DNA of 64,000 bases from Cupriavidus malaysiensis. GTDB lineage: Bacteria; Pseudomonadota; Gammaproteobacteria; Burkholderiales; Burkholderiaceae. The position numbers were made by a program, and so were the translations under genes. The notes below the pieces were generated by a model, which searched no databases, was not told the origin of the DNA, and worked only from the letters and a program-made list of their open reading frames with translations. The stretch covers positions 2,604,001 to 2,668,000 of the forward strand of contig NZ_CP017755.1 in assembly GCF_001854325.1 (NCBI RefSeq), written 5' to 3'. Shown here piece after piece: positions 1 to 14,362 of this stretch. Within the stretch, counting starts at the first letter, position 1. Each line of letters begins with the position of its first letter.

Positions 1-314
1 GGCGCGCGCTGGCCCTGCCGATGGCGGAAACGCCCGGCCACTGGATCGTGCTCGGCTTCGGCAAGAATCTCGACGAGGCGCTGACCGCCTGCCTGCGGCA
101 ACTGATCGAATGGGTCAGCGCGGCGGCAGGGATGGATCCGCAGGATGTCTATTCGCTGGCCAGCATCGCCGCCGACTTCCGCATCACCCAGTACTCCAAC
201 CAGACCGCCAGCAACTACACCTCGATTCCGGCCAAGACCGTGCACTGCATGCTGCCCAAGGCCGTGTTCGACGCCGCCATGCTCGACCAGCTGTCGCGCT
301 CGCTGCGCGGCTGA
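1..314 (+). CDS. Acetamidase/formamidase family protein, C-terminal part (5' truncated by window edge)
   Basis: The reading frame is open from the window edge and stops at 312-314; about 104 C-terminal residues are visible. The segment ASIAADFRITQ followed by VHCMLPKAVF is typical of the FmdA/AmdA acetamidase/formamidase family, which hydrolyses formamide or short aliphatic amides to the acid plus ammonia in the cytoplasm. The catalytic core lies outside the window, so substrate cannot be judged. The next gene, an AraC regulator, is convergent and ends 32 bases away. Family assignment is fairly sure; the exact function is not. Confidence 0.8.
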   Translation, partial: RALALPMAETPGHWIVLGFGKNLDEALTACLRQLIEWVSAAAGMDPQDVYSLASIAADFRITQYSNQTASNYTSIPAKTVHCMLPKAVFDAAMLDQLSRSLRG

Positions 315-345
315 CGGGCCCGCCCCTCGGCTGCCGCGCGGTGCC

Positions 346-1197
346 TCAGCCGGCCCGCGCGGCGCCGGTCATGCCGACGCGGCGGAACTCCGAGGGGCTG
401 AGCCCGAGGTGCTGGACGAAGAAGCGCGTGAAGTGTCCCTGCGCGCTGAAGCCGAGCTGGTGCGCCACGTCGCTGATGCTCGCCTGCTGCTCGGCCAGCA
501 GGCGCGTGGCGATGCTGACCCGCACCCAGTCCAGGTACTGCTGCGGCGAGATGCCCATGCAGGCCTTGAACTGGTCGAACAAGCGGCTGCGCGACATGCC
601 CACGGCACCGGCGACCGTTTCCACGCTGGGGTTCTCCCACACATGCGCGCGGATATATTCCGCGGCACGCTTGATGCGGTAGTCGAGCGGCCTCGCGCTG
701 GCCAGGACTTCGGTCATGGAGCGGCGCTGCACGTGGCGCGCGGCCACCTGGCCTACCAGCCCGGCGAGCGCGGCTTCGCAATCCGCCGGGCCGTCGCCGG
801 CGTCATGGGCCAGGCAGCCGGCGAGCGCTGCCAGCGCCGCGGCGGTCGGCGCGTCCATGCGCACGAGCGGCTGCGGAAAACGCAGGCCGACGGCGGGATG
901 GTCGGCCGCGAGCGTATCGCCCAGCCATTGCGGTTCCAGCAGCAAGGCCAGCAGCAAGGAAGGCTCGCCCTCCTGCGGCAGCTTGGCGTGCGTCGCCCAA
1001 GGATTGATCAGCAGCGCGCAGCCGTCGCCCAGCCGGTGCTGCTCGCCGTCGACCTTGAAGCAGGCGTCCGCGCCGCCGAGCTTGAAGATCAGGTGGAATT
1101 CCGCATGCGCATGGGCCACGAGCGGCCCTGCGGTCAGGTGCAGGGTGGCGCGCCCGAAGCTGCCGAGGGCGATGCGTATCTGGCGGTCTCTTGCCAT
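346..1197 (-). CDS. AraC-family transcriptional regulator
   Basis: This 283-residue protein has an N-terminal cupin-like sensing half (about 1-165, with HAHAEFHLIF) and a C-terminal AraC/XylS double helix-turn-helix domain (about 175-278). The second motif, GFSAQGHFTRFF, and the closing GLSPSEFRR are classic. A GGAGA box lies about 10 bases before the ATG. Such proteins usually activate neighbouring catabolic genes when bound to a small effector. Candidates here are the convergent amidase and the minus-strand dehydrogenase/hydrolase group beyond 1571. A perfect 20-bp palindrome lies 144 bases upstream of the start. The effector is unknown. Confidence 0.88.
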   Translation of the reverse strand: MARDRQIRIALGSFGRATLHLTAGPLVAHAHAEFHLIFKLGGADACFKVDGEQHRLGDGCALLINPWATHAKLPQEGEPSLLLALLLEPQWLGDTLAADHPAVGLRFPQPLVRMDAPTAAALAALAGCLAHDAGDGPADCEAALAGLVGQVAARHVQRRSMTEVLASARPLDYRIKRAAEYIRAHVWENPSVETVAGAVGMSRSRLFDQFKACMGISPQQYLDWVRVSIATRLLAEQQASISDVAHQLGFSAQGHFTRFFVQHLGLSPSEFRRVGMTGAARAG

Positions 1198-1340
1198 TCA
1201 GAATGTCTCCGCGTGAACCGCGCCGGCCGGGCTGTCCTGCGGACGGCCCGGCACCGCCGCGCCGCGGGCCCGCGCACAGGCAGGCGTGCGGGGGCGGGCG
1301 CGGACGTTCCGGCTCGGGTGGGATCGAGTCCCTCTCGCTT

Positions 1341-1360
1341 GAATGCAAACGTTTGCATTC
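1341..1360. promoter_or_regulatory. Perfect 20-bp palindrome, LacI/GalR-type operator
   Basis: The sequence GAATGCAAACGTTTGCATTC is a perfect 20-bp palindrome with the central CG and AAACGTTT core typical of LacI/GalR-family operators. It sits in the 373-bp space between the AraC start (1197) and the end of the dehydrogenase gene (1571). No LacI-family gene occurs in the window. I see nothing else in this gap. Confidence 0.6.
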
Positions 1361-1570
1361 CGCCAGCGCATTATCGATGCCGCGCCAGGAGCGTCAAGAG
1401 GCGTATCGCAGACACTGGTCGCACGGACGCCGTGCCCACGCGAGAATCTCCAATGAAGACAAGGAGATAGCGCACGGCATCGGAAATCATCGGAAATACC
1501 CTAGGGTTGCCTGGGCACCACGGCAAGTGCTGCCTGCGGCGCACCAGGAACGCTCCCTGGTCCCGCTCGC

Positions 1571-2638
1571 TCAAGCCCCGCTCCACGGCGGCGGCACCTC
1601 CAGCCCGCGTGCCAGCCCTTCCAGCGCTGTCACGGTGGCGCCCGGCAATGCCACGCCATCCGCGCGGCGCGCCCGCGCTTCGGCATAACCGCGCTCGCCA
1701 GGCAAGCGTGGCGGGCCTTCGGCCGAAGGAGGCAGGCCGCGGATGGCCGCGGCCAGTTCGCTCACCTGCGCGTGGAAGCGGGCCGGCTCCATCAACTGGG
1801 CAATGTCGATGGCGAGGAACCACGCATTCTGCGTGTGGCGCGCTGCCCCCGCGCCCGCCTCCGCGCCGAGCGCCGGGGCAAGGATCGGATGGCCGGCCAG
1901 CAGGCTGCAGGCGATCTCGGCCATCAGGGCCAGGCCGGAGCCCTTGGCCCCGCCCAGCGGCAAGGGAGTCGCCGCCCGCCGCGCGTCCGTGGTCGGCCTG
2001 CCCTCGGCATCGATGGCCCAGCCAGGCGCCAACGGCATGCCGGTGGCGCGCGCCTGCATCAGCTTGCCCAGCGCGACGGCCCCCGAAGCCATGTCGAACA
2101 GGATCGGGTCAGACGGGTCAGACGGCCCCGGGCAGGCCATCGAGAGCGGCGCGGTCGAGACTGCCGCGGCGGCGGCACCGTGGTAAGCCATCAGCGGGCC
2201 GGAGGCCGCCATGGCCATGGCGAACAGCCCGGCCCGGGCGGACCGGGCGGTGTGGAAACCGAGCGCGCCGGTATGCGTGGTCTCGCGCAGCAGCACCAGG
2301 CTGGCCCCGGCGCGCCTGGCCCCGGCTTCGGCCAGTTCGCGTGCCGCGCGCATGCCGACCGCGCCGGCGCAGCGCCCGCCTTCCACCACGGACAGCGCCG
2401 GCAGGCACAGGCCGGGGCGCGGCTGTGCCTGGCCGTCCATCTCGCCGCTGGCCAGCCAGCGCGCATACAGCGGCAGGCGTGCGACACCGTGCCCGTGCGC
2501 GCCGCGCAGGTCGGCCCACACCAGGCTCTCGGCGACCAGCGCGGCATCCGGGGCTTGCAGGCCGGCACAGGCCAGCAGCGAGGCGGCGAAGGCCTGCAGC
2601 CGCGCGGCATCGATGCGCAGGGGAGCCGCTTCGCTCAT
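1571..2638 (-). CDS. Ldh family (malate/L-lactate/ureidoglycolate-type) NAD(P)-dependent oxidoreductase
   Basis: This 355-residue protein belongs to the non-Rossmann malate/L-lactate dehydrogenase family (Ldh_2), whose members reduce or oxidise 2-hydroxy acids and related compounds. Visible signatures are the catalytic-region THTGALGFH, the FDMASGAVALGK segment and GGAKGSGLALMAE. Length is normal for the family. The start overlaps the stop of the upstream alpha/beta hydrolase by four bases (ATGA), so the two are translationally coupled. Pairing with a hydrolase suggests the hydrolase releases the hydroxy acid that this enzyme oxidises; that is inference, and the substrate is unknown. Confidence 0.85.
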   Translation of the reverse strand: MSEAAPLRIDAARLQAFAASLLACAGLQAPDAALVAESLVWADLRGAHGHGVARLPLYARWLASGEMDGQAQPRPGLCLPALSVVEGGRCAGAVGMRAARELAEAGARRAGASLVLLRETTHTGALGFHTARSARAGLFAMAMAASGPLMAYHGAAAAAVSTAPLSMACPGPSDPSDPILFDMASGAVALGKLMQARATGMPLAPGWAIDAEGRPTTDARRAATPLPLGGAKGSGLALMAEIACSLLAGHPILAPALGAEAGAGAARHTQNAWFLAIDIAQLMEPARFHAQVSELAAAIRGLPPSAEGPPRLPGERGYAEARARRADGVALPGATVTALEGLARGLEVPPPWSGA

Positions 2639-3522
2639 GCCGCCTGCTCCCGCTCGCGCCGCACGGGGAAGTACTTGTGCAGCCAGTCCGCGACCAGGTT
2701 CAGGACCATGCGGTTGTCATCGGAGAAGATGAAGTGGTCGACATTCGCCACCAGGTGCAGGTCGGCCGGCATGCCGGCGTGGCGGAACAACTCGATCGAT
2801 TGCTCGGTCGGCGTGACCGAGTCGTCGGCGGGATGCAGCAGCAGCAAGGGCCTGGGCGCGATCTTCGCGACCACCGCATTGGGGCGGAAGCGCAGCATGC
2901 TCTCGACCACCTCGAAGGGAAACTCCAGGAAGGAGCCGGCCGGCAGGTTGCCGCGCAGGCTGGGCGGAATGGGCACGATATCGAAGCGCGACACCGGCAT
3001 CGACACCCCCTGGCTGCGCTGCGCGCGGCCGCGCGCCACCATCTCCTCGAAACGCTGCCAGGCCTGCGCGCCGGCGTGCTGCTGGCGCAGCTTGGCTTCG
3101 CCATCGCCCCAGCCGGCCGAGGCGATGCAGGCGGCGATGCGCGCATCCACGCCGGCCGCGTAGACGGCCACCGCCGCGCCGAAGCTGTGGCCCATCACCG
3201 CCACCCGCGCGGGATCGACCTGCGGCAGGCCCTGCAGGAAGCTGACCGCATGGCGCGTGTCGGCCACCTGGTCTTCGCACAGTACCTTGGCCCGCTCGCC
3301 CTCGCTGTTGCCGCAGCCGCGCATATCGAAGCGCAGCACGACGTAGCCGAGCGACGAGAACAGGCGCGTGGCCAGCTGCACCATGCCGTCGTCCTGGTTG
3401 CTGCCGAAGCCGTGCAGGACCGCGATGGCGGGCCGGCGCTCGCCGGGCTCGGCATCGGCGGGCAGATGGAGCGCTCCCGCCAGCAGGAGGCCGTCGGAGT
3501 CGAATGTCACAGGGGTATGCAC
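2635..3522 (-). CDS. Alpha/beta hydrolase (serine hydrolase, GHSFG)
   Basis: This 295-residue alpha/beta hydrolase shows an oxyanion region HGFGSN (about 37-42), a nucleophile elbow GHSFG (Ser113), an acidic residue in HPADDSVTP and a late histidine in VDHFIF. It resembles cytosolic carboxylester or thioester hydrolases of the 'alpha/beta superfamily hydrolase' type. The best start is GTG at 3522, because no ATG suits the family N-terminus. It overlaps the Ldh gene downstream and follows the GlcG-like gene after about 90 bases, so the three probably form one transcript. Confidence 0.83.
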   Translation of the reverse strand: MHTPVTFDSDGLLLAGALHLPADAEPGERRPAIAVLHGFGSNQDDGMVQLATRLFSSLGYVVLRFDMRGCGNSEGERAKVLCEDQVADTRHAVSFLQGLPQVDPARVAVMGHSFGAAVAVYAAGVDARIAACIASAGWGDGEAKLRQQHAGAQAWQRFEEMVARGRAQRSQGVSMPVSRFDIVPIPPSLRGNLPAGSFLEFPFEVVESMLRFRPNAVVAKIAPRPLLLLHPADDSVTPTEQSIELFRHAGMPADLHLVANVDHFIFSDDNRMVLNLVADWLHKYFPVRREREQAA

Positions 3523-3612
3523 GTTGTGTTTCCAGGGTGGGTTGACAGGAAGTCGTCGGCCCGGGCGAGCGGGCCATGGATACCGCCGGCGCAGCGGCGT
3601 TGTGCGAGCGGC

Positions 3613-4152
3613 TCAGCGGCCGCCGCGCTCCGCCAGCGCGCCGATGGCCCGGATGCCGGCGCGTACCGCATCCTCGTCGGTCTGCGACGAGGCCGCGCTT
3701 GCGCCGGCGGCGCCCACCAGCGTGTCGCCGAAGAAGATGGGCAGGGAGCCCTGGGAGGGGAACATCGGCCCGCCATACGACAGCGCGCTGATCTGGCCGA
3801 ACACGATCGGATTGGCCCGGTAGCGCTCCATCAGTTCGCGCCCGCTGACGCCGCCGGTGGCGACGCTGGCGAGCGCCTTGCCGCGCGCCACGTCGAAGCT
3901 GCCGAACGGCACACCGCTCATGCGGGCAGCGGCCACCACATGCCCGGAGGCATCGACCACAACGATGGAGATACCGGTCTGCTGCGACTTCGCATAGGCC
4001 ACCGCGGCCTGGATCAGCGCTTGCGCCTGGTCGAGGGAAATGTGGGCGGCCGGCACGGTGCCCGCGGGGGCCGCCGGCTGCGCGGACGCGGACGCCGCCG
4101 CGCCGAAGCAGGCGGACAGGACAAGGGAAGCCAGGGCTTTGCTCAGGGTCAT
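3613..4152 (-). CDS. GlcG/HbpS-like exported heme-degrading/binding domain protein
   Basis: The 179-residue product has a signal peptide (about 1-24: basic start, hydrophobic stretch, ASAQ cleavage region) followed by one GlcG/HbpS domain (about 37-175). Recognisable segments are VDASGHVVAAARM, ARGKALASVATG and the final GDTLVGAAGASAASSQTDE. HbpS proteins bind heme extracellularly; GlcG-like proteins are often encoded beside hydroxy-acid or aromatic catabolic genes without a proven role. The frame stays open upstream to 4500, but the ATG at 4152 has a GGAGCT box and begins the signal peptide, so it is chosen. Confidence 0.82.
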   Translation of the reverse strand: MTLSKALASLVLSACFGAAASASAQPAAPAGTVPAAHISLDQAQALIQAAVAYAKSQQTGISIVVVDASGHVVAAARMSGVPFGSFDVARGKALASVATGGVSGRELMERYRANPIVFGQISALSYGGPMFPSQGSLPIFFGDTLVGAAGASAASSQTDEDAVRAGIRAIGALAERGGR

Positions 4153-4670
4153 GGGAGCTCCAGTGGAGTGAAACCTGCGGCCGCGCCGGCAGCGCGGCGG
4201 CGCCTCGCATGACATCGCCGTGCCGCCCCAGGGCCATCGACCATGAGGGTAAAGGCCCACCGTGCCAGCGCAGGCACCCAAGACTCCACTGGCTTGCCCA
4301 ATGGTCCGATTCTGTCCGGCCGGCATCCGTGCACCCTGTCCGGCGCGCCAGGCCGAGGCGGCATGCATCACCGAAGTGCGCAGCAGGGCCGGCTGACGGC
4401 TCGCATTAGAGACATTACGGGCCACCCGGCTGCCAGCGGGCGTGGCCGGACTTCCAAGCCACCGGACGGACGGCAAGGCGGACCCGCAATGTCCCAGCAC
4501 TCACAAGAAGTAGCTCTCAACCCACATTCAGCATGCGCATTGCGCCACGATGACACTCCGCCCGTGCCGAACACGATACAAAGACCGCGCGATGGCGAGC
4601 GAAGCGGAACCAGACCGCGCCTCCGGCACGCGGGTGCCGCCGCCACCGCGCCCCAATGCGGCGCGGAGCC
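4153..4670. other. 518-bp gap without a recognisable gene
   Basis: Short open frames exist on both strands, but none has a family-like sequence or a good ribosome binding site. The gap should carry the promoter of the GlcG/hydrolase/dehydrogenase group and the 3' end of the rtcB-like transcript. No convincing terminator hairpin with a T-run was seen. Confidence 0.5.
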
Positions 4671-5825
4671 TCACCCCCGCTGCCCCGCCCCCCGCATCCG
4701 GTAGGTCAGCACCGGCCGCAGGCGCGCCAGGATGGTCAGCAGGCCTTCATCGCGCAGGGCATGCACCACGCTGTCGATCGGCTTGTAGGCGTCGGGGGCT
4801 TCCTCGTAACGCAGCGCGTGGTCGCCGCAGATGACCAGGCTGCCGAACCGCGTGCGGGCGAGCTGGTCGGGCGTGTAGCGCCGCGCCAGCCGCTCGCGGC
4901 TTTCGCCACGCGACCACTTGCGGCCGGCGCCGTGGGCGAGCGAGAACAGGCTGTGCGCGGCGGGCAGCGGCCGCACCAGGTAGCTGTAGTCGCCGCGCGA
5001 GCCGGGGATCACCACCGGGCCCTGGTCGGCCGGCGCCGCGCCCCGGCGGTGCAGCCAGCCGCGCACGCCGTCCACTTCGGCCGCCGCCACGAGGTTGTGA
5101 TGCCGGTCGAGCAAGGCCTGCCCCGCACCGCCGCCCAGGCGTGCCAGCACACGCCGCGCGAGCAGGGCGCGGTTGGCGCGCGCCAGGCCTAGCGCCTGCG
5201 CATGGCTGGCGAGGTAGGCGGCGGCCTCCGTGCTGCCTTCCGCCAGGCCATCGTGGCCGCAGCGCGCCATGTGCTCGTGCAGGACGGTCTCGCCCAGTCC
5301 GCGCGCGCCACCGTGCACCAGCAGCAGCAGGCGGGCAGGATCGATGCCGAGCGCCGCCACGGCGGCGGCGTCCTCGATACCGTCGACCTGCTGCAGCTCA
5401 GCGAAGGGATTGCCGGCCCCCGGGCCACCCAGGGCGTCGAGCACGGCAGCGTGGCTGCCGTGCGCCGCCGCCAGCCGCGCGGCCTCGTCCTGCCAGGCGG
5501 CATCGGGCGGACCGTCGAGGTCGCCCAGGCTCCGGTCGAGGCGCTCGGGGCTGGCTGCCGCGGCGTCGACGCCGGTCTGCCACAGCGCCATGCCGGCGCC
5601 GATATCGCCGCCGACCAGCGCCGGATAGAGGCGGCCGACGGCGAAGCTGGCGGCGCCCGCCGGATAGGCACGGCCGGGATGCAGGCCGGGCATGGCGACC
5701 AGCCGCCGCATGCCGGGCAGCTCAAAGGTGGAGTGGAGTTGATGGACAGCCTGGCTGTCGATCCAGGTGTCGTCCGAAGCGATCAAGGAGATCCCCTCGG
5801 CAAAATGCACGATGCCGTTGCCCAT
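4671..5825 (-). CDS. RtcB-family RNA ligase homologue (release-factor-H-coupled type), metal ligands altered
   Basis: The 384-residue product aligns with the shorter RtcB family usually encoded beside prfH (RNA ligase joining 3'-phosphate or cyclic phosphate to 5'-OH RNA with GTP and Mn). Conserved pieces are GMRR near the start, GGDIG (72-76), HGGARGLG (His171), HHN (His243), PGSRGDYSYLV and HGAGRKWSR (His298, the guanylylated histidine position). The motif DIGCG reads DIGAG (Ala77) and the usual GNHF reads GNPF (Pro140), so two metal-binding residues appear lost. No prfH is adjacent. The ATG at 5825 is chosen because the MGNGIVHFAEG start matches the family; a GGAAAGG box precedes it. Confidence 0.85.
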   Translation of the reverse strand: MGNGIVHFAEGISLIASDDTWIDSQAVHQLHSTFELPGMRRLVAMPGLHPGRAYPAGAASFAVGRLYPALVGGDIGAGMALWQTGVDAAAASPERLDRSLGDLDGPPDAAWQDEAARLAAAHGSHAAVLDALGGPGAGNPFAELQQVDGIEDAAAVAALGIDPARLLLLVHGGARGLGETVLHEHMARCGHDGLAEGSTEAAAYLASHAQALGLARANRALLARRVLARLGGGAGQALLDRHHNLVAAAEVDGVRGWLHRRGAAPADQGPVVIPGSRGDYSYLVRPLPAAHSLFSLAHGAGRKWSRGESRERLARRYTPDQLARTRFGSLVICGDHALRYEEAPDAYKPIDSVVHALRDEGLLTILARLRPVLTYRMRGAGQRG

Positions 5826-5894
5826 AGGCCTTTCCGGAGAGATTGCGGGAAGCAGGAACCAGAGGTGGCAGGCCGGAGCCGGGCAACGCAAGCC

Positions 5895-5914
5895 TTCCCG
5901 CGCAGGAGCGGGAA
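5895..5914 (-). repeat. 7-bp stem hairpin between leader ORF and rtcB-like gene
   Basis: A perfect inverted repeat (TTCCCGC, six-base loop, GCGGGAA) lies between the end of the 13-codon ORF and the rtcB-like start. It has no T-run on either side, so it is not a simple intrinsic terminator. It could be a regulatory RNA hairpin. Confidence 0.45.
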
Positions 5915-5927
5915 ACGGGGAACAGGG

Positions 5928-5969
5928 TCAGCCGAGGCGCGGTCTGCAAAGAATCAGAACAGTCTTCAT
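5928..5969 (-). CDS. Putative 13-residue leader peptide upstream of the rtcB-like gene
   Basis: The ORF encodes MKTVLILCRPRLG and stops with TGA. A near-ideal Shine-Dalgarno sequence (AAAGGAGA) lies six bases before its ATG, stronger than that of the rtcB-like gene about 100 bases downstream. Its position and a hairpin after it suggest an attenuation or translational-coupling leader, but it may equally be the relic start of a decayed gene. No homologue is known to me. Confidence 0.4.
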   Translation of the reverse strand: MKTVLILCRPRLG

Positions 5970-6211
5970 GTCGATCTCCTTTGCATAGCGGTTGGGTTGA
6001 GGCAAGTTGGCGATGCTAAGCCGGCCAGGTGTGCGCGGCAAGCCCCACGGCCGGGTGGAATGCTTCGCTGTCGCGACGGCACGACAGCGGCCGGCCCGGC
6101 CGCGCCGGCGCCCGCCGCGCCGCGGCGCCTGCTCGCAAACCCGGAGCCCGGGTGCCGGTGGCGCTGTCCGGCCTCCACCGGCGCCGCCTTTTTTCCTTGT
6201 GCATCAAGGCT

Positions 6212-6226
6212 GTGCAACCCTTGCAC
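6212..6226. promoter_or_regulatory. MhpR-type (IclR family) operator palindrome
   Basis: GTGCAACCCTTGCAC is a perfect palindrome around a 3-bp centre. It matches the GTGCA-N5-TGCAC plan of the Escherichia coli MhpR operator as I remember it. It lies upstream of mhpC, and no mhpR-like gene is present in the window. Confidence 0.55.
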
Positions 6227-6241
6227 GTTTTCGAGAATCGT

Positions 6242-6270
6242 TTTACGCGAGGACCGGACCCGCCTAGCAT
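6242..6270 (+). promoter_or_regulatory. Predicted sigma-70 promoter for the mhpC transcript
   Basis: A -35-like TTTACG (6242-6247) and a -10-like TAGCAT (6265-6270) are separated by 17 bp. The predicted start, near 6277, would place the upstream palindrome centre close to -58. Both hexamers deviate from consensus, consistent with an activator-dependent promoter. Confidence 0.4.
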
Positions 6271-6317
6271 GCGCTTACCCCTTCGATCCGGACACGAGAC
6301 CGGCCACAGGAGACAGC

Positions 6318-6356
6318 ATGCGATCGCACCACCACGGCAAGCCGCCGTCCGGCTGA
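6318..6356 (+). CDS. Putative 12-residue leader ORF upstream of mhpC
   Basis: ATG at 6318 follows an ACAGGAGA ribosome site with good spacing and opens a short ORF encoding MRSHHHGKPPSG, then TGA. It lies in the long predicted 5' leader of mhpC. It may be a leader peptide or the relic of a lost mhp gene. There is no further evidence of function. Confidence 0.3.
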   Translation: MRSHHHGKPPSG

Positions 6357-6581
6357 AGCCCCGCTTCCGCTGCCACCGGACAGACCGGTGCAGCGGCAAC
6401 AGGTAACAGGCCAGCCGGCCTGGCCGCCCCGCCAGGCCGCCTATTCCGACGCTTGATGCGCACGCGCGCCCGGTCCCCGCGAGGGCACCGGCCGGCCGCG
6501 CTTGCGCCCGGCGCCACCGCATTGCCGCATTACCGGATGACTTGACCGCCCGCCGCCAGCCGCGGCGGTTCCCCTCTCCGA

Positions 6582-6617
6582 ACGAGATCAACGAGACCAA
6601 CGAGACCAACGAGACCA
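6582..6617 (+). repeat. 9-bp tandem repeat in the mhpC ribosome-binding region
   Basis: Four copies of ACGAGACCA (the first with one mismatch) run to three bases before the mhpC ATG and occupy the place where a Shine-Dalgarno sequence should be. No better GGAG-type site is present. Confidence 0.75.
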
Positions 6618-6620
6618 ACC

Positions 6621-7493
6621 ATGACCCCCTCCTCGCAAGCGATCACCGAAGCCGCCACCAGCCGCTTCGTCACCATCCAGGAAGCCGGCCAGGACCTGCG
6701 CATCCACTACAACGACGTCGGCAGCGGCGCCGAGACCGTCGTCATGCTGCACGGCTCCGGTCCCGGCGCCAGCGGCTGGGCCAACTTCAGCCGCAATATC
6801 GAGCCCTTCGTCGCGGCCGGCTACCGCGTGCTGCTGGTCGACTGCCCAGGCTGGAGCCGGAGCGACACCATCGTCTGCACCGGCTCGCGCTCCGAGCTCA
6901 ATGCGCGCGCGCTGCTGGGCGTGCTCGACGCCATCGACCACCCGGGCCCCGTGCACATCATCGGCAACTCCATGGGCGGCCACAGCGCCGTGGCCTTCGC
7001 GCTGGCCAATCCGGCGCGCGTCGGCAAGCTGGTCCTGATGGGCGGCGGCACCGGCGGCCCGAGCCTGTTCCAGCCGATGCCGCTGGAGGGCATCAAGCTG
7101 CTGCAGGGCGTCTATCGCGAGCCGACCCTGGAGAACCTCAAGAAGATGCTGAACGTCTTCATGTACGACGCCAGCCGCCTGACCGAGGAACTGATCCAGG
7201 CCCGCCTGGACAACACGCTGGCGCGGCGCGACCACCTGGAGAACTTCGTCAAGAGCCTGGCCGCCAACCCGCGCCAGTTCCCCGACGTGGGCCACCGCCT
7301 GGGCGAGATCGCCGCGCCGGCGCTGGTCATCTGGGGCCGCGACGACCGCTTCGTGCCGATGGACGTGGGCCTGCGCCTGGTCTGGGGCATGCAGAACGCC
7401 GAGATGCACATCTTCAACCGCTGCGGCCACTGGGCGCAGTGGGAGCATGCCGAGAAGTTCAACCGCATGGTGCTCGACTTCCTCGCGCACTGA
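6621..7493 (+). CDS. mhpC: 2-hydroxy-6-oxonona-2,4-dienedioate hydrolase (meta-cleavage product hydrolase)
   Basis: This 290-residue enzyme hydrolyses the C-C bond of the ring-fission product in 3-phenylpropionate and 3-(3-hydroxyphenyl)propionate breakdown, giving 2-hydroxypentadienoate plus succinate or fumarate. It matches E. coli MhpC along its whole length: TEAATSRF at the start, [17 protein letters not shown], nucleophile GNSMGG (Ser117), [23 protein letters not shown] (Asp241/242) and CGHWAQWEH (His270). The other pathway genes (mhpA, B, D, F, E, R) are not in the window. It is followed 55 bases later by an aromatic-acid carrier, so import and degradation genes are paired. BphD-type activity is the alternative. 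Confidence 0.92.
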
Positions 7494-7548
7494 GCCGTCC
7501 GTCCAGCGCCCCCCGCCACCACAGAACCACTACGGAAGAGACAACAGC

Positions 7549-8913
7549 ATGGACGTTCGTGAAGCCATCCGCACGCAGCCGATGCGCCGGCTGCAGTGGC
7601 AGACCGTGGCGGTCTGCCTGGTGCTGACCATGATCGACGGGTTCGAGATCCTGGTCATGGCCTTCGTCGCGCCGCACCTGGCCAAGGCCTGGCACCTGAG
7701 CCCGGTGGAGGTCGGCTACCTGCTGAGCGCCGGCGTGCTCGGCACGGCCCTGGGGGCGATCTTCCTGTCGCCCCTGGCCGACCGTATCGGCCGGCGCCCG
7801 CACGCCATCGCCTGCCTGGTCCTGATCACGCTTGGCATGGGCCTGTCCGCGGCCGCGCAGAACGTGCCGCAGCTGGTGGCGTTCCGCGCCTTCGCGGGGT
7901 TGTCGATCGGCGCGCTGGTGGCCACGCTCAACATCACCGCGTCCGAATACAGCTCGCAGCGCCGGCGCGGCGTGGTGATGGGGATCTACGGCATCGGCCT
8001 GCCCGCCGGCGCCGCCCTCGGCGGCGCCCTCAGCGGCCTGCTGATCGCCGCCTATGGCTGGCGCGCGCCCTTCATTTTCGGCGCGCTGATCACCGCGCTG
8101 ATGCTGGTGGTGGTCATCGCCGTCCTGCCCGAGTCGATCGACTACCTGGTGGACAAGCGCCCCCGGCGCGCGCTGGCGCAGTACAACGCGATCGCGCGCC
8201 GGCTCGGCTACGCTGCCGTGGAGCAGCTGCCCGAGGCCGCCGCGCAGGCCCGGCGCGGCGGCGTGCGCCAGGCCATCTTCGGCGGCGTGATGGCGCGGCG
8301 CACCGCCTTCCTGTGGCTGTCCTACGCGCTGCTGACGGCCGCCTTCTACTTCGCCAACACCTGGACCGCCAAGCTGATGGCCGACGCCACCGGCAGCCCC
8401 GAGCTGGGCCTGCGCGCCGGCGTGCTGGTGCCGCTCGGCGGCGTGCTGGGCGCGCTGCTGTTCGCCGCCCTGACCCTGGTGGTGCGTCCGCGCCTGGCGA
8501 CCCTGTTCATCCTGTGCGGCGGCGCCGCCGCCTTCCTCGCCTACGCCAATGCGCTGGGCCACGGCGCGGTCGGCCTGTCGCTGGCGCTCGCGCTGGCGGT
8601 CGGCGTCTTCGCCAATGGGGGCATCGCCGCCTTCTACGCCATCAGCCCCTCGGTCTACCCGGCGGCGGCGCGCGGCGCCGGCGTGGGCTGGATGATCGGC
8701 TTCGGCCGCGTGGTGTCGATCCTGTCGCCGCTCGCCACCGGCTACCTGCTGGCATCCGGCTGGGCGCCGCGGCTGACCTACCAGCTGTTCGCGGGGTGCC
8801 TGCTGCTGGCGGGACTGGCCTGCTGGCTGCTCGACCGCACCTACCGCGGTACTGACGGCGGCACGGAGAGCGCTTCCGGCGCGGCCGGGGCCTCGCCGGA
8901 AGCCGCCGCCTGA
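7549..8913 (+). CDS. MFS transporter, AAHS aromatic acid:H+ symporter family
   Basis: The 454-residue protein has the 12-helix MFS pattern. It begins with a conserved aspartate in helix 1 (MIDGFEILVMAF), then the loop 2-3 motif LADRIGRRP and an LPESIDYLVDKRP segment before the central loop, all as in PcaK/BenK/MhpT-type aromatic acid symporters. It probably imports the phenylpropionate-type substrate whose ring-cleavage product MhpC hydrolyses; that link is inferred from adjacency. The last 73 bases overlap the 3' end of the convergent cobT gene. Confidence 0.86.
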   Translation: MDVREAIRTQPMRRLQWQTVAVCLVLTMIDGFEILVMAFVAPHLAKAWHLSPVEVGYLLSAGVLGTALGAIFLSPLADRIGRRPHAIACLVLITLGMGLSAAAQNVPQLVAFRAFAGLSIGALVATLNITASEYSSQRRRGVVMGIYGIGLPAGAALGGALSGLLIAAYGWRAPFIFGALITALMLVVVIAVLPESIDYLVDKRPRRALAQYNAIARRLGYAAVEQLPEAAAQARRGGVRQAIFGGVMARRTAFLWLSYALLTAAFYFANTWTAKLMADATGSPELGLRAGVLVPLGGVLGALLFAALTLVVRPRLATLFILCGGAAAFLAYANALGHGAVGLSLALALAVGVFANGGIAAFYAISPSVYPAAARGAGVGWMIGFGRVVSILSPLATGYLLASGWAPRLTYQLFAGCLLLAGLACWLLDRTYRGTDGGTESASGAAGASPEAAA

Positions 8914-10796
8914 GTGGACGCGCCGGCGGCGCCGGAGGCCCCGGCGACGCCCGGCGCCGGCCCGGCCTGGTCCGCCGGCAAGGCATGCCCGCGCGTGGCC
9001 AGCCAGCGCACCACGCCGCCCAGCAACGCGGTATCCAGCGGCCGTGCCGGGTCCAGCGCCAGGCTGCGCCGGTAGTAGGGACTCAGGTCGAGCCCCACCC
9101 CCAGGCCCAGCACTTCGATCTCGCCGCGCGCCTCCTCGCGCGCGACCACCTGCTGCAAGTGGCGGTCGAGGTAGTGCGCATCGTTGGCGAGCGCGGTGGC
9201 ACTGTCCATCGGGCTGCCATCCGAGATCACCACCACGATGCGGCGCGCGCCGGGCCCGCCCGCATCGAGCGCGCGCAAGCGCCCGCAGGCCCATTGCAGG
9301 GCCTCGCCGTCGATGCCTTCGCGGAACAGGTCGGACTTGAACAGCGCGGCAATGCCGGCCCGCGAGCGGCGCCAGCCGCGCGCCGCCTCCTGGAACACCA
9401 GGTGGCAGCGCTCGTTGAGCCGGCCGGGACGGGGCGGGCGCCCGCGTGCCAGCCAGTCCTGGCGGGCGCGGCCGCCATGCCAGCCACCAGTGGTGAAGCC
9501 CAGCACCTCGGCCGGCACGCCGGCCAGTTCGAGCGCGCGTGCCAGCGTGTCGACCAGCATCGCCACCAGTTCGACATGCCCCTTCATCGAGCCCGAGCAG
9601 TCGACCAGCAGGCTGACCGCGCAAGCGGCCCGCGGACGCAGGCGCTCCTGCCGGAACACGCGCCGCTCGGCCGGCGAAGCGGCCAGCAGCGCCAGCCTGC
9701 GCCCGTCGATGCGGCCGCTTTCCTCGCCGAAGGACCAGCCCTGCGGACGCGGCTGCGCCAGGGCGGCGGCCAGTTCGCGCGCCAGCCGCGCCAGGTTCAG
9801 CCCGCGCGCGGCGAGCAGGCGGTCGAGCCGCTCGCGGTATTCGCGCAGCAAGGCTGGCCGCACCTGCTGCGCGGCCTGCAGCTCGCGGTCGTAGCGCGTG
9901 GTGAAGACGCGATAGGCATCGGCGCCGTGCACCATGCCGGGCGCGGCCGCCAGCCCGCCGGCGACCGCCATCCAGCCGCCGGCCTCCTCGTCGACCTCGA
10001 GCCAGAGCGCGAAGGCGGCGCGCACCGCCGCCTGCCTGTCCTCGTCCTTGCCGTCCTCCGCCGCGGCCGGCTGCCCGAAGCCCGCCGCCGCCAGCATGGC
10101 GCCGACCTGGCGCGACAAGGCCAGTGCATGCGTGGCATAACCGCGCTGGTCGGCGCGGTGGCGCCTGAGGCCGGCCAGCGCTGCGCCCAGCGCGGGCACG
10201 ATGGCCGCGCGCGTGGCTTCGATCAGGTCTTCGGTATCTTCCAGCACCGGCCGGCCCTGCACGCGCGACCAGGCGATCTGCGCCACCGTGTACAGCAGGA
10301 TGCCCGCGTGGCCGTCGGTGAAGCCCGCCTGGTGGAAGCCGCGCGACCAGTCTTCGAAGCGCGCGCGCAGGTTGGCGGCGACGCCGCGCAGCGCCGGCGG
10401 CACCAGCGCCTCGCAGCGCATCTGTTCCAGCCATTCGAACAGCAGCCGTTCGAGCGGATCGTGCGGACAGAGCGCGCGGTGCACAGCGGCATCGGAGTAC
10501 GCCAGGCGCAGCGCCACGCCGTCGGCCGCGCCGCGCTGTCCGGCCAGGCCGTCGGCGGTGTCGGCGCGCAGATGGGGGGCCTGCAGCGGCAGCGGCCGCA
10601 GGCCGCGTGACAGGCGGCCTGCGCGGTAGTGCAGGCTGGCGTCGCCGCTGAGCGCGCGCGCCGCCGCCGCGCACAGTTCCTGCCGGCGGCGCAACCGGGT
10701 GGCCGCGACGTTTGCCGCCGTGCCGGCGGTGCCGGCGCCACCCCTGCCCTCGTTGCCGTCGTTGCCGTCGTTGCCGTCGTTGCCGTCGCCGCTCAT
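8841..10796 (-). CDS. cobT: Cobaltochelatase CobT-type subunit (C-terminal VWA domain)
   Basis: The 651-residue protein resembles CobT, the integrin-like partner of CobS in the aerobic cobaltochelatase, which inserts Co2+ into hydrogenobyrinate diamide. The N-terminal half (about 35-350) carries the CobT region. A VWA domain follows with MIDAS DCSGS (399-403), [18 protein letters not shown], the basic [18 protein letters not shown] and ISDGSPMD. The N-terminus has a GND tripeptide repeat from a 9-bp tandem repeat. The start overlaps the cobS stop (ATGA). No cobN is nearby, so the pair may serve a distant CobN or act as a stand-alone AAA+/VWA remodelling machine. Confidence 0.85.
10751..10786 (-). 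repeat. 9-bp tandem repeat inside the start of cobT
   Basis: Four perfect copies of CGTTGCCGT (plus-strand reading) encode the Gly-Asn-Asp repeats at the CobT N-terminus. The unit length is a multiple of three, so copy-number change would keep the frame. Confidence 0.85.
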
Positions 10797-11803
10797 GCGG
10801 CCAGCCTCTGCAGCGGTGCGGCGGGTGCCAGCGCCATTTCCAGTTCGCGCCCGAACACGCGCTGGAAGTACTCGGCCACCACCGGCCGCTCGGCTTCGTC
10901 GCACTTGTTGAGGAAGGTCAGGCGGAAGGCCTGGCCGGGGTCGCGGAAGATCAGGCTGTTCTCCGCCCAGTCGATCACGGTGCGCGGCGACATCAGGGTG
11001 GACAGGTCGCCGCTGGCGAAGCCGGCGCGCGTGAGCGCCGCCACCGCCACCATCGCCTCGGCCAGTTCGCGCCCACCCGCTCCACCCGCTCCACCCGCGC
11101 CCGCCAGCCCGGGCACGCACGCCAGCACGATCGCGACCTCCTCCCCGGCCGGCAGGTAGTCCAGCGTGGCCACCACGTTCCAGCGGTCGAGCTGGGCGTG
11201 GTTGAGCGCCTGGGTGCCGTGGTACAGGCCGTTGAGGTCGCCGAGGCCGACGGTGTTGCAGGTGGCGAACAGGCGGAAGGCCGGATGCGGCCGGATCACC
11301 CGGTTCTGGTCGAGCAGCGTGAAGCGGCCGTCGCGCTCCAGGATGCGCTGGATCACGAACATCACATCGGGGCGGCCGGCATCGTATTCGTCGAACACCA
11401 GCGCCACCGGCCGCTGCAGCGCCCACGGCACGATGCCTTCCTGGAACTCGGTGACCTGGCGCCCGTCGCGCAGCACGATGGCGTCCTTGCCGACCAGGTC
11501 GAGGCGGCTGATGTGGCCGTCCAGGTTCACCCGCACGCAGGGCCAGTTCAGGCGCGCGGCCACTTGCTCGACATGGGTCGATTTGCCGGTGCCGTGCCGG
11601 CCCTGCACCATCACGCGCCGCCCGCGCCCGAAGCCGGCCAGGATGGCCAGCGTCGCCTCCGGCTGGAAACGGTAGGCCGGGTCGACCTCCGGCACATGCT
11701 CGTCGCGCTCGCTGAAGGCGGGCACCTGCAGCGGCACATCGATACCGAACACCTCGCGCACCGGAACCATGCGGTCCGGTCCGGCCATCACGCTTTCCGT
11801 CAC
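10793..11803 (-). CDS. cobS: Cobaltochelatase CobS-type AAA+ ATPase subunit
   Basis: The 336-residue MoxR/CobS-type AAA+ protein has Walker [10 protein letters not shown] (68-76), Walker B ALVFDEYD (134-141), sensor region [12 protein letters not shown] and the family signature [12 protein letters not shown]. CobS forms the hexameric ATPase ring that, with the CobT VWA protein, powers cobalt insertion by CobN. The start is GTG at 11803, preceded by GAGGAGG at ideal spacing. The stop overlaps the cobT start. A short Gly/Ala insert (about 235-246) looks like a local repeat expansion. Confidence 0.87.
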
Positions 11804-11891
11804 GGCTTCCTCCTCGTCTGCGTCACATTGCGGCCCGCCACGCGGCGGGCCCGCCTCCCTGGATGATAGTACCGTTTCGTTTTTCTGTACA

Positions 11892-11992
11892 AATCATTCC
11901 GTTTAATGGTTTACAGCATTGACCTTCTCGCAACCAGATCCTAGAGTCACGCTCAAACAAAGATGTTTACGGGACTAATCGTTCCGTTTAAT
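11892..11992. promoter_or_regulatory. Pair of 16-bp direct repeats 85 bp apart upstream of the permease gene
   Basis: AATCATTCCGTTTAAT (11892-11907) and AATCGTTCCGTTTAAT (11977-11992) differ at one base and start 85 bp apart, close to eight helical turns. This is the pattern of paired operator sites for a regulator that loops DNA. Confidence 0.55.
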
Positions 11993-12027
11993 TAACAAGA
12001 AAAGGAAACACGAAAAGGAGATCGACC

Positions 12028-12040
12028 GCATCCCGGATGC
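12028..12040. promoter_or_regulatory. 13-bp palindrome GCATCC-C-GGATGC upstream of the permease
   Basis: A perfect dyad around a single C lies about 200 bases before the permease start. Its GCATCC half also occurs in the direct repeats ahead of the MocR gene at 18096-18138, which hints at a shared regulator; six bases is weak evidence. Confidence 0.35.
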
Positions 12041-12239
12041 CGTGCGCGCCGCCCCCGCGGCCGCATGGCGCCGCCCGGGTGCCGGGCATGCGCCACATGC
12101 CCGCGCATCCGTTTTCCCCGACGCACGCGCTGCCGCCTTTCTGGCACCATGCCGACAGGCGCGCAAGGTAGTACAACAAAGCAAAGCACATGACAGCGCG
12201 GCGTCTTCCAACCCAAAGACGCATTGGAGACAGCAAGCA

Positions 12240-13676
12240 ATGAGCAGTAATCCGCAACAAGGCAACGGGCTGCAGCACGGCCTGAAGCAGAGGCACATGA
12301 CCATGATCGCGCTGGGCGGCGTGATCGGCGCGGGACTCTTCGTCGGCAGCGGCGTGGTGATCCGCTCGGCCGGCCCCGCCGCCGTGATCTCCTTCCTGCT
12401 GACCGGCCTGCTGGTGGTGCTGGTGATGCGCATGCTGGGCGAGATGGCGTGCGCCATGCCCGGCGGAGGCTCCTTCTACGAATACGCGCGCGAGGCCTGG
12501 TGCGACAAGCCGGCGGTGGGCGAGCTGGCCGGCTTCCTCAGCGGCTGGATGTACTGGTACTTCTGGGTCATCGTGGTGGCCCTGGAGGCGGTCGCCGGCG
12601 CCGACCTGATCCGCTTCTGGCTGCCCGGCGTGCCGGCCTGGAGCATCAGCCTGGTGCTGCTGATGCTGCTCACGCTGACCAACCTGATCTCGGTGAAGTC
12701 CTTCGGCGAGTTCGAGTTCTGGTTCGCCTCGATCAAAGTGGCGGCCATCGTCGTCTTCCTGTTCGTGGCCGGCCTCTACGCGCTCGGCATGTGGCCCGGC
12801 GCCAGCGCCGCGGCCAGCGTCGCCACCCTCACCGGGCACGGCGGCTTCGCCCCCCACGGCATCATGCCGGTCCTGACCGGCGCGGTGGCCGCCACCGGCT
12901 TCTACTTCGGCGCCGAGATCGTCACCATCGCCGCCGCCGAGACCAGCGAGCCGCAGAAGGCGGTGGCGCGCGCCACCAGTTCGGTCATCACGCGCGTGCT
13001 GGTCTTCTACGTCGGCTCGGTGCTGCTGGTGGTATGCCTGGTGCCGTGGGACTCGGACGGCATCGCCACGCCCTACGTCAGCGCGCTCAACGCCATGCGC
13101 ATCCCGGCCGCCGCCCAGATCATGAACGCGGTGGTGCTGACGGCGGTGCTGTCGGCGCTGAACTCCGGCCTGTACGCCTCCTCGCGCATGCTGTTCGCGC
13201 TGACCGCGCGCGGCGACGCCCCGCGCGCGCTGGCCAAGGTCAGCCGCAGCGGCGTGCCGGTCAACGCCATCCTGTTCGCCACGCTGTTCGGCTACGGCGC
13301 GGTGGTGATGTCCTACGTCTCGCCGGACAAGGTGTTCGCCTTCCTGGTCAACTCCTACGGCACCGTGGCGATCTTCGTCTACATCCTGATCGCGGTCTCC
13401 CAGCTGCGCCTGCGCGCGCGCATCGAGCGCGAAGCGCCCGAACGCCTGCGCGTGCGCATGTGGGCCTTCCCGTGGCTGACCTACCTCGCCATCCTCGGCA
13501 TGGCCAGCATCGTGGTGGCGATGGCCTTCATCCCCGACCAGCGCACGCCGCTGCTGCTGGGCGTGGCCAGCCTGTGCCTGCTGCTGGGCGCCTTCCTGCT
13601 GCGCCGCCACCTGCGCCGGCACGCCGAGGCCGCCATGCCGGCCGGCGCCTCGCGCCCGCGCCTGCGCAAGCTCTGA
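12240..13676 (+). CDS. Amino acid permease, GABA permease (GabP)-like, APC superfamily
   Basis: The 478-residue protein has about 12 transmembrane helices and strong amino-acid-transporter signatures: LKQRHMTMIALGGVIGAGLF at the start, MRMLGEMA, the AAETSEPQKAV segment and ALNSGLYASSRMLFAL. The best family match is the GabP/AnsP group of proton-driven amino-acid permeases. It is followed by genes for a PuuB-like amine-oxidising flavoprotein and a sulfite dehydrogenase. The substrate may therefore be an omega-amino acid such as GABA, or an amino-sulfonate; that is inference. The ATG at 12240 has TTGGAGA upstream and starts the conserved N-terminus. A 9-bp stem hairpin follows the stop. Confidence 0.86.
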   Translation: MSSNPQQGNGLQHGLKQRHMTMIALGGVIGAGLFVGSGVVIRSAGPAAVISFLLTGLLVVLVMRMLGEMACAMPGGGSFYEYAREAWCDKPAVGELAGFLSGWMYWYFWVIVVALEAVAGADLIRFWLPGVPAWSISLVLLMLLTLTNLISVKSFGEFEFWFASIKVAAIVVFLFVAGLYALGMWPGASAAASVATLTGHGGFAPHGIMPVLTGAVAATGFYFGAEIVTIAAAETSEPQKAVARATSSVITRVLVFYVGSVLLVVCLVPWDSDGIATPYVSALNAMRIPAAAQIMNAVVLTAVLSALNSGLYASSRMLFALTARGDAPRALAKVSRSGVPVNAILFATLFGYGAVVMSYVSPDKVFAFLVNSYGTVAIFVYILIAVSQLRLRARIEREAPERLRVRMWAFPWLTYLAILGMASIVVAMAFIPDQRTPLLLGVASLCLLLGAFLLRRHLRRHAEAAMPAGASRPRLRKL

Positions 13677-13681
13677 CCACG

Positions 13682-13703
13682 GCGGGCCGCCGCCGCGGCC
13701 CGC
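13682..13703 (+). terminator. Terminator-like hairpin after the permease gene
   Basis: GCGGGCCGC, a four-base loop and GCGGCCCGC form a perfect 9-bp stem followed by TCTTCTC. The pyrimidine tail is short on T, so this is a likely but not classic intrinsic terminator. Confidence 0.5.
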
Positions 13704-13785
13704 TCTTCTCCCCCCTACGTCCTTTCCCTCTCCGCGGGCGCGCCGAGCCATGGCGCCCCGCCGTGCCGCCATGCCGCCGGCCCTG

Positions 13786-13814
13786 GTACCAGCCGTACCA
13801 GCGGCCGTACCAGC
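13786..13814. promoter_or_regulatory. Three GTACCAGC direct repeats upstream of the SnoaL/FAD/Sor operon
   Basis: Copies start at 13786, 13795 and 13807. They lie about 150 bases before the first gene of the operon. Ordered direct repeats of this size are the kind of site MocR/GabR-type regulators bind, and a MocR gene ends this gene group. Confidence 0.35.
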
Positions 13815-13960
13815 CGGCGGCGCCGGCCCGCCCCGCTGGCCCAATCGATTCCCGCGCCTGGCCCTACAGCATCGCCGCCGCGCTCTCTATGCTGGTGGCA
13901 TCACCGACGGGGCGGCAGCGCCGGCTCCCCGCACCACCCGAGAGAACGAGGAGAGACAAG

Positions 13961-14362
13961 ATGAGCGACACGCAGGTCACCGTGGCCACGCTGCAGGCCT
14001 TCAACGACGCCTGGAACCGGCACGACATCGACGCGCTGATGGCCTTCATGGCCGACGACTGCGAATTCCACGCGGTGGCCGGCCCCGAACTGACCGGGCG
14101 CGCCTTCCGCGGCCGCGCGGCGGTGCGCGAGGGCTTCCTGCTGGCCTGGCAGACCTTCCCCGACGCGGCCTGGGTCGACGGCGAGCACTTCGTCAGCGGC
14201 CAGCGCGGCGTCAGCGAATCCACCTTCCGCGGCACGCGCGCCGACGGCACCCGCATCGAGGCGCGCATGGTCGATGTGTTCACCTTCCGCGACGGCCGCA
14301 TCGCGGTGAAGAACGCCTACCGCAAGGACCGCCCGCCGGTGGCCGCGCCCGCAGCCAACTAA
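13961..14362 (+). CDS. SnoaL-like / NTF2-fold small protein
   Basis: The 133-residue protein has the SnoaL-like (NTF2-fold) pattern: FNDAWNRHDIDALMAFMADDCEFH at the front, then GRAAVREGF and VDVFTFRDGRI near the end. Members are small isomerases or hydrolases, or ligand-binding partners of uncertain role. A GAGGAGAGA ribosome site precedes the ATG. It begins an operon, with the FAD oxidoreductase 28 bases downstream. Function here is unknown. Confidence 0.8.
   Translation: MSDTQVTVATLQAFNDAWNRHDIDALMAFMADDCEFHAVAGPELTGRAFRGRAAVREGFLLAWQTFPDAAWVDGEHFVSGQRGVSESTFRGTRADGTRIEARMVDVFTFRDGRIAVKNAYRKDRPPVAAPAAN

Follow-up and report, generated by a model that had tools for sequence, protein, structure and literature searches.

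In the RtcB2-PrfH module, as in E. coli ATCC25922, RtcB2 belongs to TIGR03073 ('release factor H-coupled'). In every case observed rtcB lay upstream of RFH, and many prfH genes were pseudogenes (PMC1586002). ArmZ (PA5471) of Pseudomonas aeruginosa, the anti-repressor of MexZ, has the leader PA5471.1 and is of the same family as the protein analysed here. PA5471.1 was proposed to control armZ by transcription attenuation upon ribosome stalling (PMC12057347, PMC13041342), and PMC3575510 names this control translational attenuation. PMC12057347 regards the control of an anti-repressor by a leader as apparently peculiar to MexXY. Tobramycin is reported to upregulate prfH, together with arfA and arfB, in biofilms of P. 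aeruginosa (PMC13159725).

The metal site is taken from canonical RtcB. The reference set in P. horikoshii RtcB consists of the Mn ligands Asp95, Cys98, His203, His234, and His329 and the guanylylated His404. Cys98 is shared by the two Mn ions and His203 serves a single one, and Ala at the equivalents of the ligand Cys (E. coli, human, and P. aerophilum) or at P. aerophilum His205, the equivalent of the ligand His, gave ligase-dead protein (PMC10630183).

The rtcB2 locus and its missing partner

An RtcB-type gene of Cupriavidus malaysiensis was analysed in a window (the whole stretch of DNA under analysis, 64,000 nucleotides). The original prediction had placed the gene correctly, and its strand is minus; the plus-strand reading of the same interval is broken by a stop.

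4671..5825, minus strand: rtcB2 homologue of 384 amino acids, presumed ligase-dead, with an open frame from ATG (5825) to TGA (4671); TIGR03073, PF01139
4159..4670, minus strand: region downstream of rtcB2 where prfH stands in relatives, in which no prfH remnant was recognised

The protein scored 476.7 bits against TIGR03073, passing the curated cut-off of 271.8, and was also matched by PF01139 in the profile search. It shares with RtcB2 of the RtcB2-PrfH module the scaffold, the MGN start, and the guanylylation His, but differs in having neither prfH nor two of the Mn ligands and in the loss of other near-invariant residues. Compared with canonical RtcB (PF01139; P. horikoshii PH1602, human RTCB), it has the same fold, is shorter, and is about 23% identical. 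The TIGR03073 cut-off was exceeded in 33 of the 398 genomes of the family sample, and among the 32 full-length matches that of C. malaysiensis (476.6 bits) was the weakest (next, 523.8 bits). Within the genus, a match of more than 300 bits to the protein was found in five of 60 genomes (its own, G000, and G052, G006, G003, and G005). Its identity was 62.533% to the protein of Cupriavidus sp. YR651 (L007) and 60.417% to that of C. basilensis (L010), the same values as for G052 and G006, respectively. No second strain or plasmid copy came to light: the DNA of the locus had no match in the plasmid collection, where the protein search returned only relatives below 60% identity.

An intact canonical RtcB is encoded elsewhere in the same genome. 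Two relatives have an additional RtcB paralogue, scoring 322-329 bits against PF01139, besides the canonical RtcB and RtcB2 (G006:C574:2876-4063, L133; G003:C1:337309-338499, L134). The window also contains two nine-base tandem repeats, AACGAGACC (4.3 copies, 6581-6619), just before a hydrolase gene, and TGCCGTCGT (4.9 copies, 10745-10788), between CobS- and CobT-like genes.

The absence of an adjacent prfH, which the original prediction had pointed out in a family normally paired with it, was borne out: prfH was directly downstream of rtcB2 in all 84 other loci and absent here alone. The 85 loci comprised the 80 best from the contig search, the C. malaysiensis locus, and four genus loci, with at least two loci occurring twice. 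A TIGR03072 search of the genome gave nothing over the prfH cut-off and two weaker matches, both to long RF-1-type genes. Comparison of the 84 prfH sequences with window positions 1-14000, with composition statistics off, gave scattered weak matches (the best, E 1.5e-4, inside the CobT region; another, E 0.001, at 5016-4555 on the minus strand, overlapping the 3' portion of rtcB2 but in a different frame), which were taken as noise, and a prfH remnant was rejected. The DNA match to genus genome G052 spanned positions 4678-6002 (rtcB2 and leader) and stopped at the 3' end of rtcB2.

Among the relatives, P0013 (583 aa) carries PF01139 and PF00472 on one chain, an rtcB2-prfH fusion. The prfH match was in two pieces in P. 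aeruginosa PA7 (L009, 7125-7390, only part covered) and in a Ralstonia (L030, 7116-7740).

It is quite possible that the gene is decaying: loss of prfH would have left the module useless, and rtcB2 would drift under a GC-rich mutation or conversion bias, its frame staying open only because high GC makes stops rare. The disappearance of prfH from both locus and genome fits this explanation, for which E. coli K-12, a known broken rtcB2-prfH pair, offers a precedent (PMC1586002, PMC9223846).

Metal ligands and predicted fold

The two substitutions at metal ligands on which the original prediction was built are real, and His171, His243, and His298 remain, as it had stated.

5595..5597, minus strand: codon 77, GCC, Ala replacing the metal-ligand Cys (DIGAG), from translation and alignment
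5406..5408, minus strand: codon 140, CCC, Pro replacing the metal-ligand His (GNPF), aligned with His203 of P. horikoshii RtcB

Ala77 aligned with the Cys of DINCG in P. horikoshii RtcB, and Asp74 and Asn139 are kept together with the three His residues. The positions of the full RtcB ligand set therefore read Asp74, Ala77, Pro140, His171, His243, and, at the guanylylation site, His298. In an alignment of 120 rows (the C. malaysiensis protein and P0003-P0121, the homologues being the best 120 of 2068 and the duplicate P0002 being excluded), column 77 was Cys and column 140 was His in 119 rows, with Ala and Pro in C. malaysiensis alone; the proposal to look for relatives sharing them thus had a negative outcome. 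A search aimed at residues 66-146 found no further ligand-less relative, as all 25 new proteins read DIGCG and GNHF. DIGCG was also read in 35 of 35 other TIGR03073 loci of the class and family samples, three of them identical with loci of the prfH survey. GNHF was read in 34 of these by a first-match pattern, which in L181 took an N-terminal GNCF; the alignment row of that locus (L088) reads GNHF. The Ala77/Pro140 change is confined to the C. malaysiensis lineage among the homologues examined.

The chain had been described as otherwise well conserved, but the damage is wider. Nine of 112 near-invariant columns were changed (D47G, G53A, F60S, C77A, H140P, S174A, K261R, C309S, and K376R), compared with a mean of 0.39 and a maximum of 8 among 192 relatives; 193 distinct rows were used of 202 gathered, after removal of P0002 (a duplicate), P0013 (the fusion), and L091 (truncated). 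Besides the two ligands, the changes alter the motifs MPDLHPG, HSGSRG, and HRKGA and the C-terminal Lys, Lys376Arg being aligned with Lys486 of TTHA1785. The maximum of 8 belongs to L082, itself on a long branch; the next-highest relative has 3. L082 (Morganella morganii) is another fast-evolving RtcB2 (end branch 0.73); its 8 changes spare the ligand Cys and His, and prfH is still present there. In C. malaysiensis, none of six windows on active-site stretches was significantly enriched in changes (P 0.15 to 0.74), a result that counts in favour of decay.

A sequencing or assembly artefact is most improbable as the origin of these changes. Nothing beyond the single genome attests to them, but this genome (7.95 Mb) is in 3 contigs with 99.99% completeness, the protein cluster lists 8 member sequences, the change from Cys to GCC takes at least two base changes, and seven further near-invariant columns are changed in a frame that is open.

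An AlphaFold2 model of the protein (41 sequences) had a mean pLDDT of 84.0 and a pTM of 0.88; the control, with the sister P0003 placed first on the same set, had 92.2 and 0.92. Confidence relative to P0003 dropped by 21-27 points in blocks 41-60, 121-140, 301-310, and 341-350 (41-50, 73 vs 95; 51-60, 70 vs 93; 121-130, 55 vs 82; 131-140, 59 vs 84; 301-310, 58 vs 83; 341-350, 68 vs 89), the block numbering of the two proteins being offset by 3 after about residue 125. The N-terminal 30 residues were also lower (68, 75, and 77 vs 82, 90, and 90), and blocks 61-100 and 141-170 stayed at 91 or more. The best PDB match of the model was RtcB 4dwr (E 2.2e-23), and the 16 structure matches with E <= 0.001 were RtcB chains, TTHA1785, and a tRNA ligase complex. 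According to the models, the RtcB fold is kept and the active-site loops lose confidence relative to the sister. The latter agrees with decay; the protein is also less similar to its alignment than P0003, which lowers confidence from that alone.

In summary, RtcB2 of C. malaysiensis is very probably ligase-dead, judging from the changes Cys77Ala and His140Pro at both Mn sites, Lys376Arg, and those in MPDLHPG and HSGSRG. Neither proper binding of Mn or GMP nor RNA ligation is to be expected of it. The inactivity suspected in the original prediction is accordingly probable, given the two lost Mn ligands and the dead Ala mutants (PMC10630183). That the protein is still a ligase with an altered metal site, in which other residues or water replace Cys and His, is very unlikely. 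Asp74, Asn139, His171, His243, His298, and the fold are kept, but the equivalent single Ala mutants were dead in the RtcBs studied (PMC10630183), both Mn sites are affected, Arg replaces the equivalent of Lys486 of TTHA1785, no compensating ligand was apparent by eye, and prfH is missing. The literature search, which was partial, found no paper joining RtcB with 'pseudoenzyme'.

Evolutionary rate and residual constraint

In a tree of 55 rows (quick search), C. malaysiensis RtcB2 grouped with P0003, P0004, P0005, L088, and P0007 (97). Its end branch was 0.61, about five times the median of 0.12, and only that of L082 was longer. The acceleration is as decay would predict. When columns on which the five sisters and three outgroups agree were divided into classes from least to most conserved, the changes in C. 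malaysiensis numbered 5/9, 13/29, 9/38, 6/45, and 9/98. In the five sisters, 0-1 of 98-99 columns was changed in the most conserved class and 0-4 of 29-33 in the second class. The constraint on the protein is thus weakened but graded with conservation; the excess of change is larger at variable than at invariant columns. Uniform neutrality would not give this pattern, which speaks against decay. Part of the gradient may be older than the loss.

The composition has drifted as well, again in the direction that decay would take. The fraction of Gly, Ala, Arg, and Pro was 0.451, compared with 0.336-0.374 in the sisters, and none of 187 relatives outside the clade exceeded 0.398. The lineage showed 17 changes to these residues and 7 from them, and 14 losses and 3 gains of Phe, Tyr, Met, Ile, Asn, and Lys. 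The fraction ranged from 0.32 to 0.51 in neighbouring genes, so only the comparison within the family counts. The canonical RtcB of the same genome was ordinary in both respects (identity 0.744-0.762 to four relatives; fraction 0.322, compared with 0.312-0.327).

The open frame is a further point against decay, though the odds make it a weak one. Only 1.9% of random single changes create a stop, in line with decay. If 9.2% of residues had changed neutrally, a stop would be absent with probability 0.36 and a frameshift with probability 0.12 or 0.01, for indel ratios taken as 0.05 or 0.1; at 4%, the values would be 0.65 and 0.40 or 0.16, and it is these odds that weaken the argument. Taken together, the acceleration and the GC-ward drift appear to speak for relaxed selection, and the signs of residual selection are the gradient with conservation and a frame that has stayed open. 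Of the two fates named in the original prediction, 'repurposed' and 'decaying', each found some support and neither alone was borne out.

The leader ORF and the possible role of the protein

A short ORF precedes rtcB2, as in relatives of the RtcB2-PrfH module.

5928..5969, minus strand: leader ORF of 13 codons, MKTVLILCRPRLG, counterpart of PA5471.1, from upstream homology and the leader finder
5976..5982, minus strand: Shine-Dalgarno sequence AAAGGAG of the leader ORF, from the sequence
5977..5985, minus strand: 5' strand TGCAAAGGA of the predicted helix covering the leader Shine-Dalgarno sequence, from duplex prediction, with strands assigned from the sequence
5945..5953, minus strand: 3' strand TTCTTTGCA of the Shine-Dalgarno helix, within the leader ORF, from duplex prediction
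5867..5880, minus strand: block GGCTCCGGCCTGCC, common to relatives, possible partner of GCAG(G)CC in the leader ORF, with one mismatch in C. malaysiensis

The leader finder required a Shine-Dalgarno sequence followed by ATG and 9-25 codons, ending at least 60 bases before rtcB2. A leader ORF was found in 79 of 81 regions (C. malaysiensis and the 80 best loci), a count reached by loosening the finder stepwise on the same sequences (68/82, then 76 sequences, then 79/81). In the control of the last version on 79 regions, shuffles gave a mean of 1.05 and a maximum of 2; on the reverse strand, 7 of 79 regions had a match. The PA7 leader (L009, MIQFSTLCRLRLA) has 13 codons with Gln3 and Phe4, as PMC13041342 gives for PA5471.1. 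The putative leader is common to the rtcB2-prfH operons of many beta- and gammaproteobacteria, far beyond P. aeruginosa; a partial literature search found no description of it outside that species.

TTTGCAG occurred inside 49 of 79 leader ORFs, and CCTGCC occurred downstream in 64 of 79 leaders, compared with 6.7 in shuffles. The shared stretch is read in differing frames (LCR in some leaders, PFAG in others), which suggests conservation of the RNA and not of the peptide. Pairing of the Shine-Dalgarno sequence with the leader ORF (in C. malaysiensis, a duplex of 9 pairs, -10.8 kcal/mol) was stronger than in shuffled versions of the same strands for 54 of 56 distinct leaders. When strands were exchanged between leader types, each type's own combination came out strongest in four of five rows; the one departure was type AG with RGS strands. 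The second pairing, of the leader ORF with the downstream block, beat shuffles in 45 of 56 leaders; it is the one with the mismatch in C. malaysiensis. An Rfam search for the leader gave six matches at six loci (E up to 1), none near the gathering score; a Yar_3 match (E 0.54) lay beside the leader on the opposite strand. Erosion of the terminator T-tract was dropped as evidence: in C. malaysiensis the anchor fell on a CCTGCT further along, and even P. aeruginosa PA7 has no strong tract.

Identity to nine outgroups was compared between C. malaysiensis and L007, its nearest Cupriavidus relative. It was about 0.54 and 0.57, respectively, for the full leader and 0.63 and 0.64 from the Shine-Dalgarno sequence to the stop, compared with about 0.59 and 0.69 for the protein. 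The two leaders were 0.71 identical in the full alignment and 0.53 when the part from the stop to rtcB2 was aligned alone. The leader therefore seems to lack clear acceleration, which would count against decay; a handful of neutral changes is also compatible with it, and the comparison is suggestive only, being short and alignment-dependent.

ArmZ is the nearest known non-ligase precedent among RtcB2 proteins. P0030 has the ArmZ residues at the numbers given in PMC12057347. The ArmZ relatives examined keep Cys77 and His140 and adjoin prfH, whereas C. malaysiensis RtcB2 has neither the residues nor the neighbour. The six ArmZ residues described as contacting MexZ are all present in C. malaysiensis, but they are hardly informative since they are mostly invariant in the family (four in 193 of 193 rows, one in 190). 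The original prediction had also suggested an RNA-binding role; this found no direct support; ArmZ itself is an anti-repressor of MexZ and not an RNA-binding protein.

The best explanation, with a probability of roughly 0.48, is a ligase-dead RtcB2 without prfH that is under reduced but real constraint and is plausibly an ArmZ-like binding protein. A binding role and decay are nearly even; the lean to residual function comes from excess change that is graded by conservation and from a leader that is not clearly accelerated. On this account, a member of the rtcB2-prfH ribosome-repair family has lost PrfH as its partner and so much of the active site that catalysis should have ceased. Ribosomes stalling on the leader ORF would let transcription or translation run on into rtcB2, as proposed for armZ. 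RtcB2 made without PrfH would then act, if at all, by binding a partner and not by catalysis, in a manner modelled on the binding of the repressor MexZ by ArmZ. A stronger form, a natural separation of function in which RtcB2 shed its ligase chemistry and PrfH and was kept as a ribosome-stress-induced, ArmZ-like regulator or binder, is unlikely; in that case, leaders of the PA5471.1 type would generally control beta- and gammaproteobacterial rtcB2-prfH operons and would not be a peculiarity of MexXY regulation.

ArmZ figures in the literature as an RtcB-like ligase and also as an anti-repressor. A naturally ligase-dead RtcB2 with a leader and without prfH would make it testable whether these roles are separable. 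If the gene is only decaying, it would be a clean case of the loss of a ribosome-repair module once PrfH goes. The shared leader, for its part, suggests that sensing of translational problems in cis is widespread among rtcB2-prfH operons.
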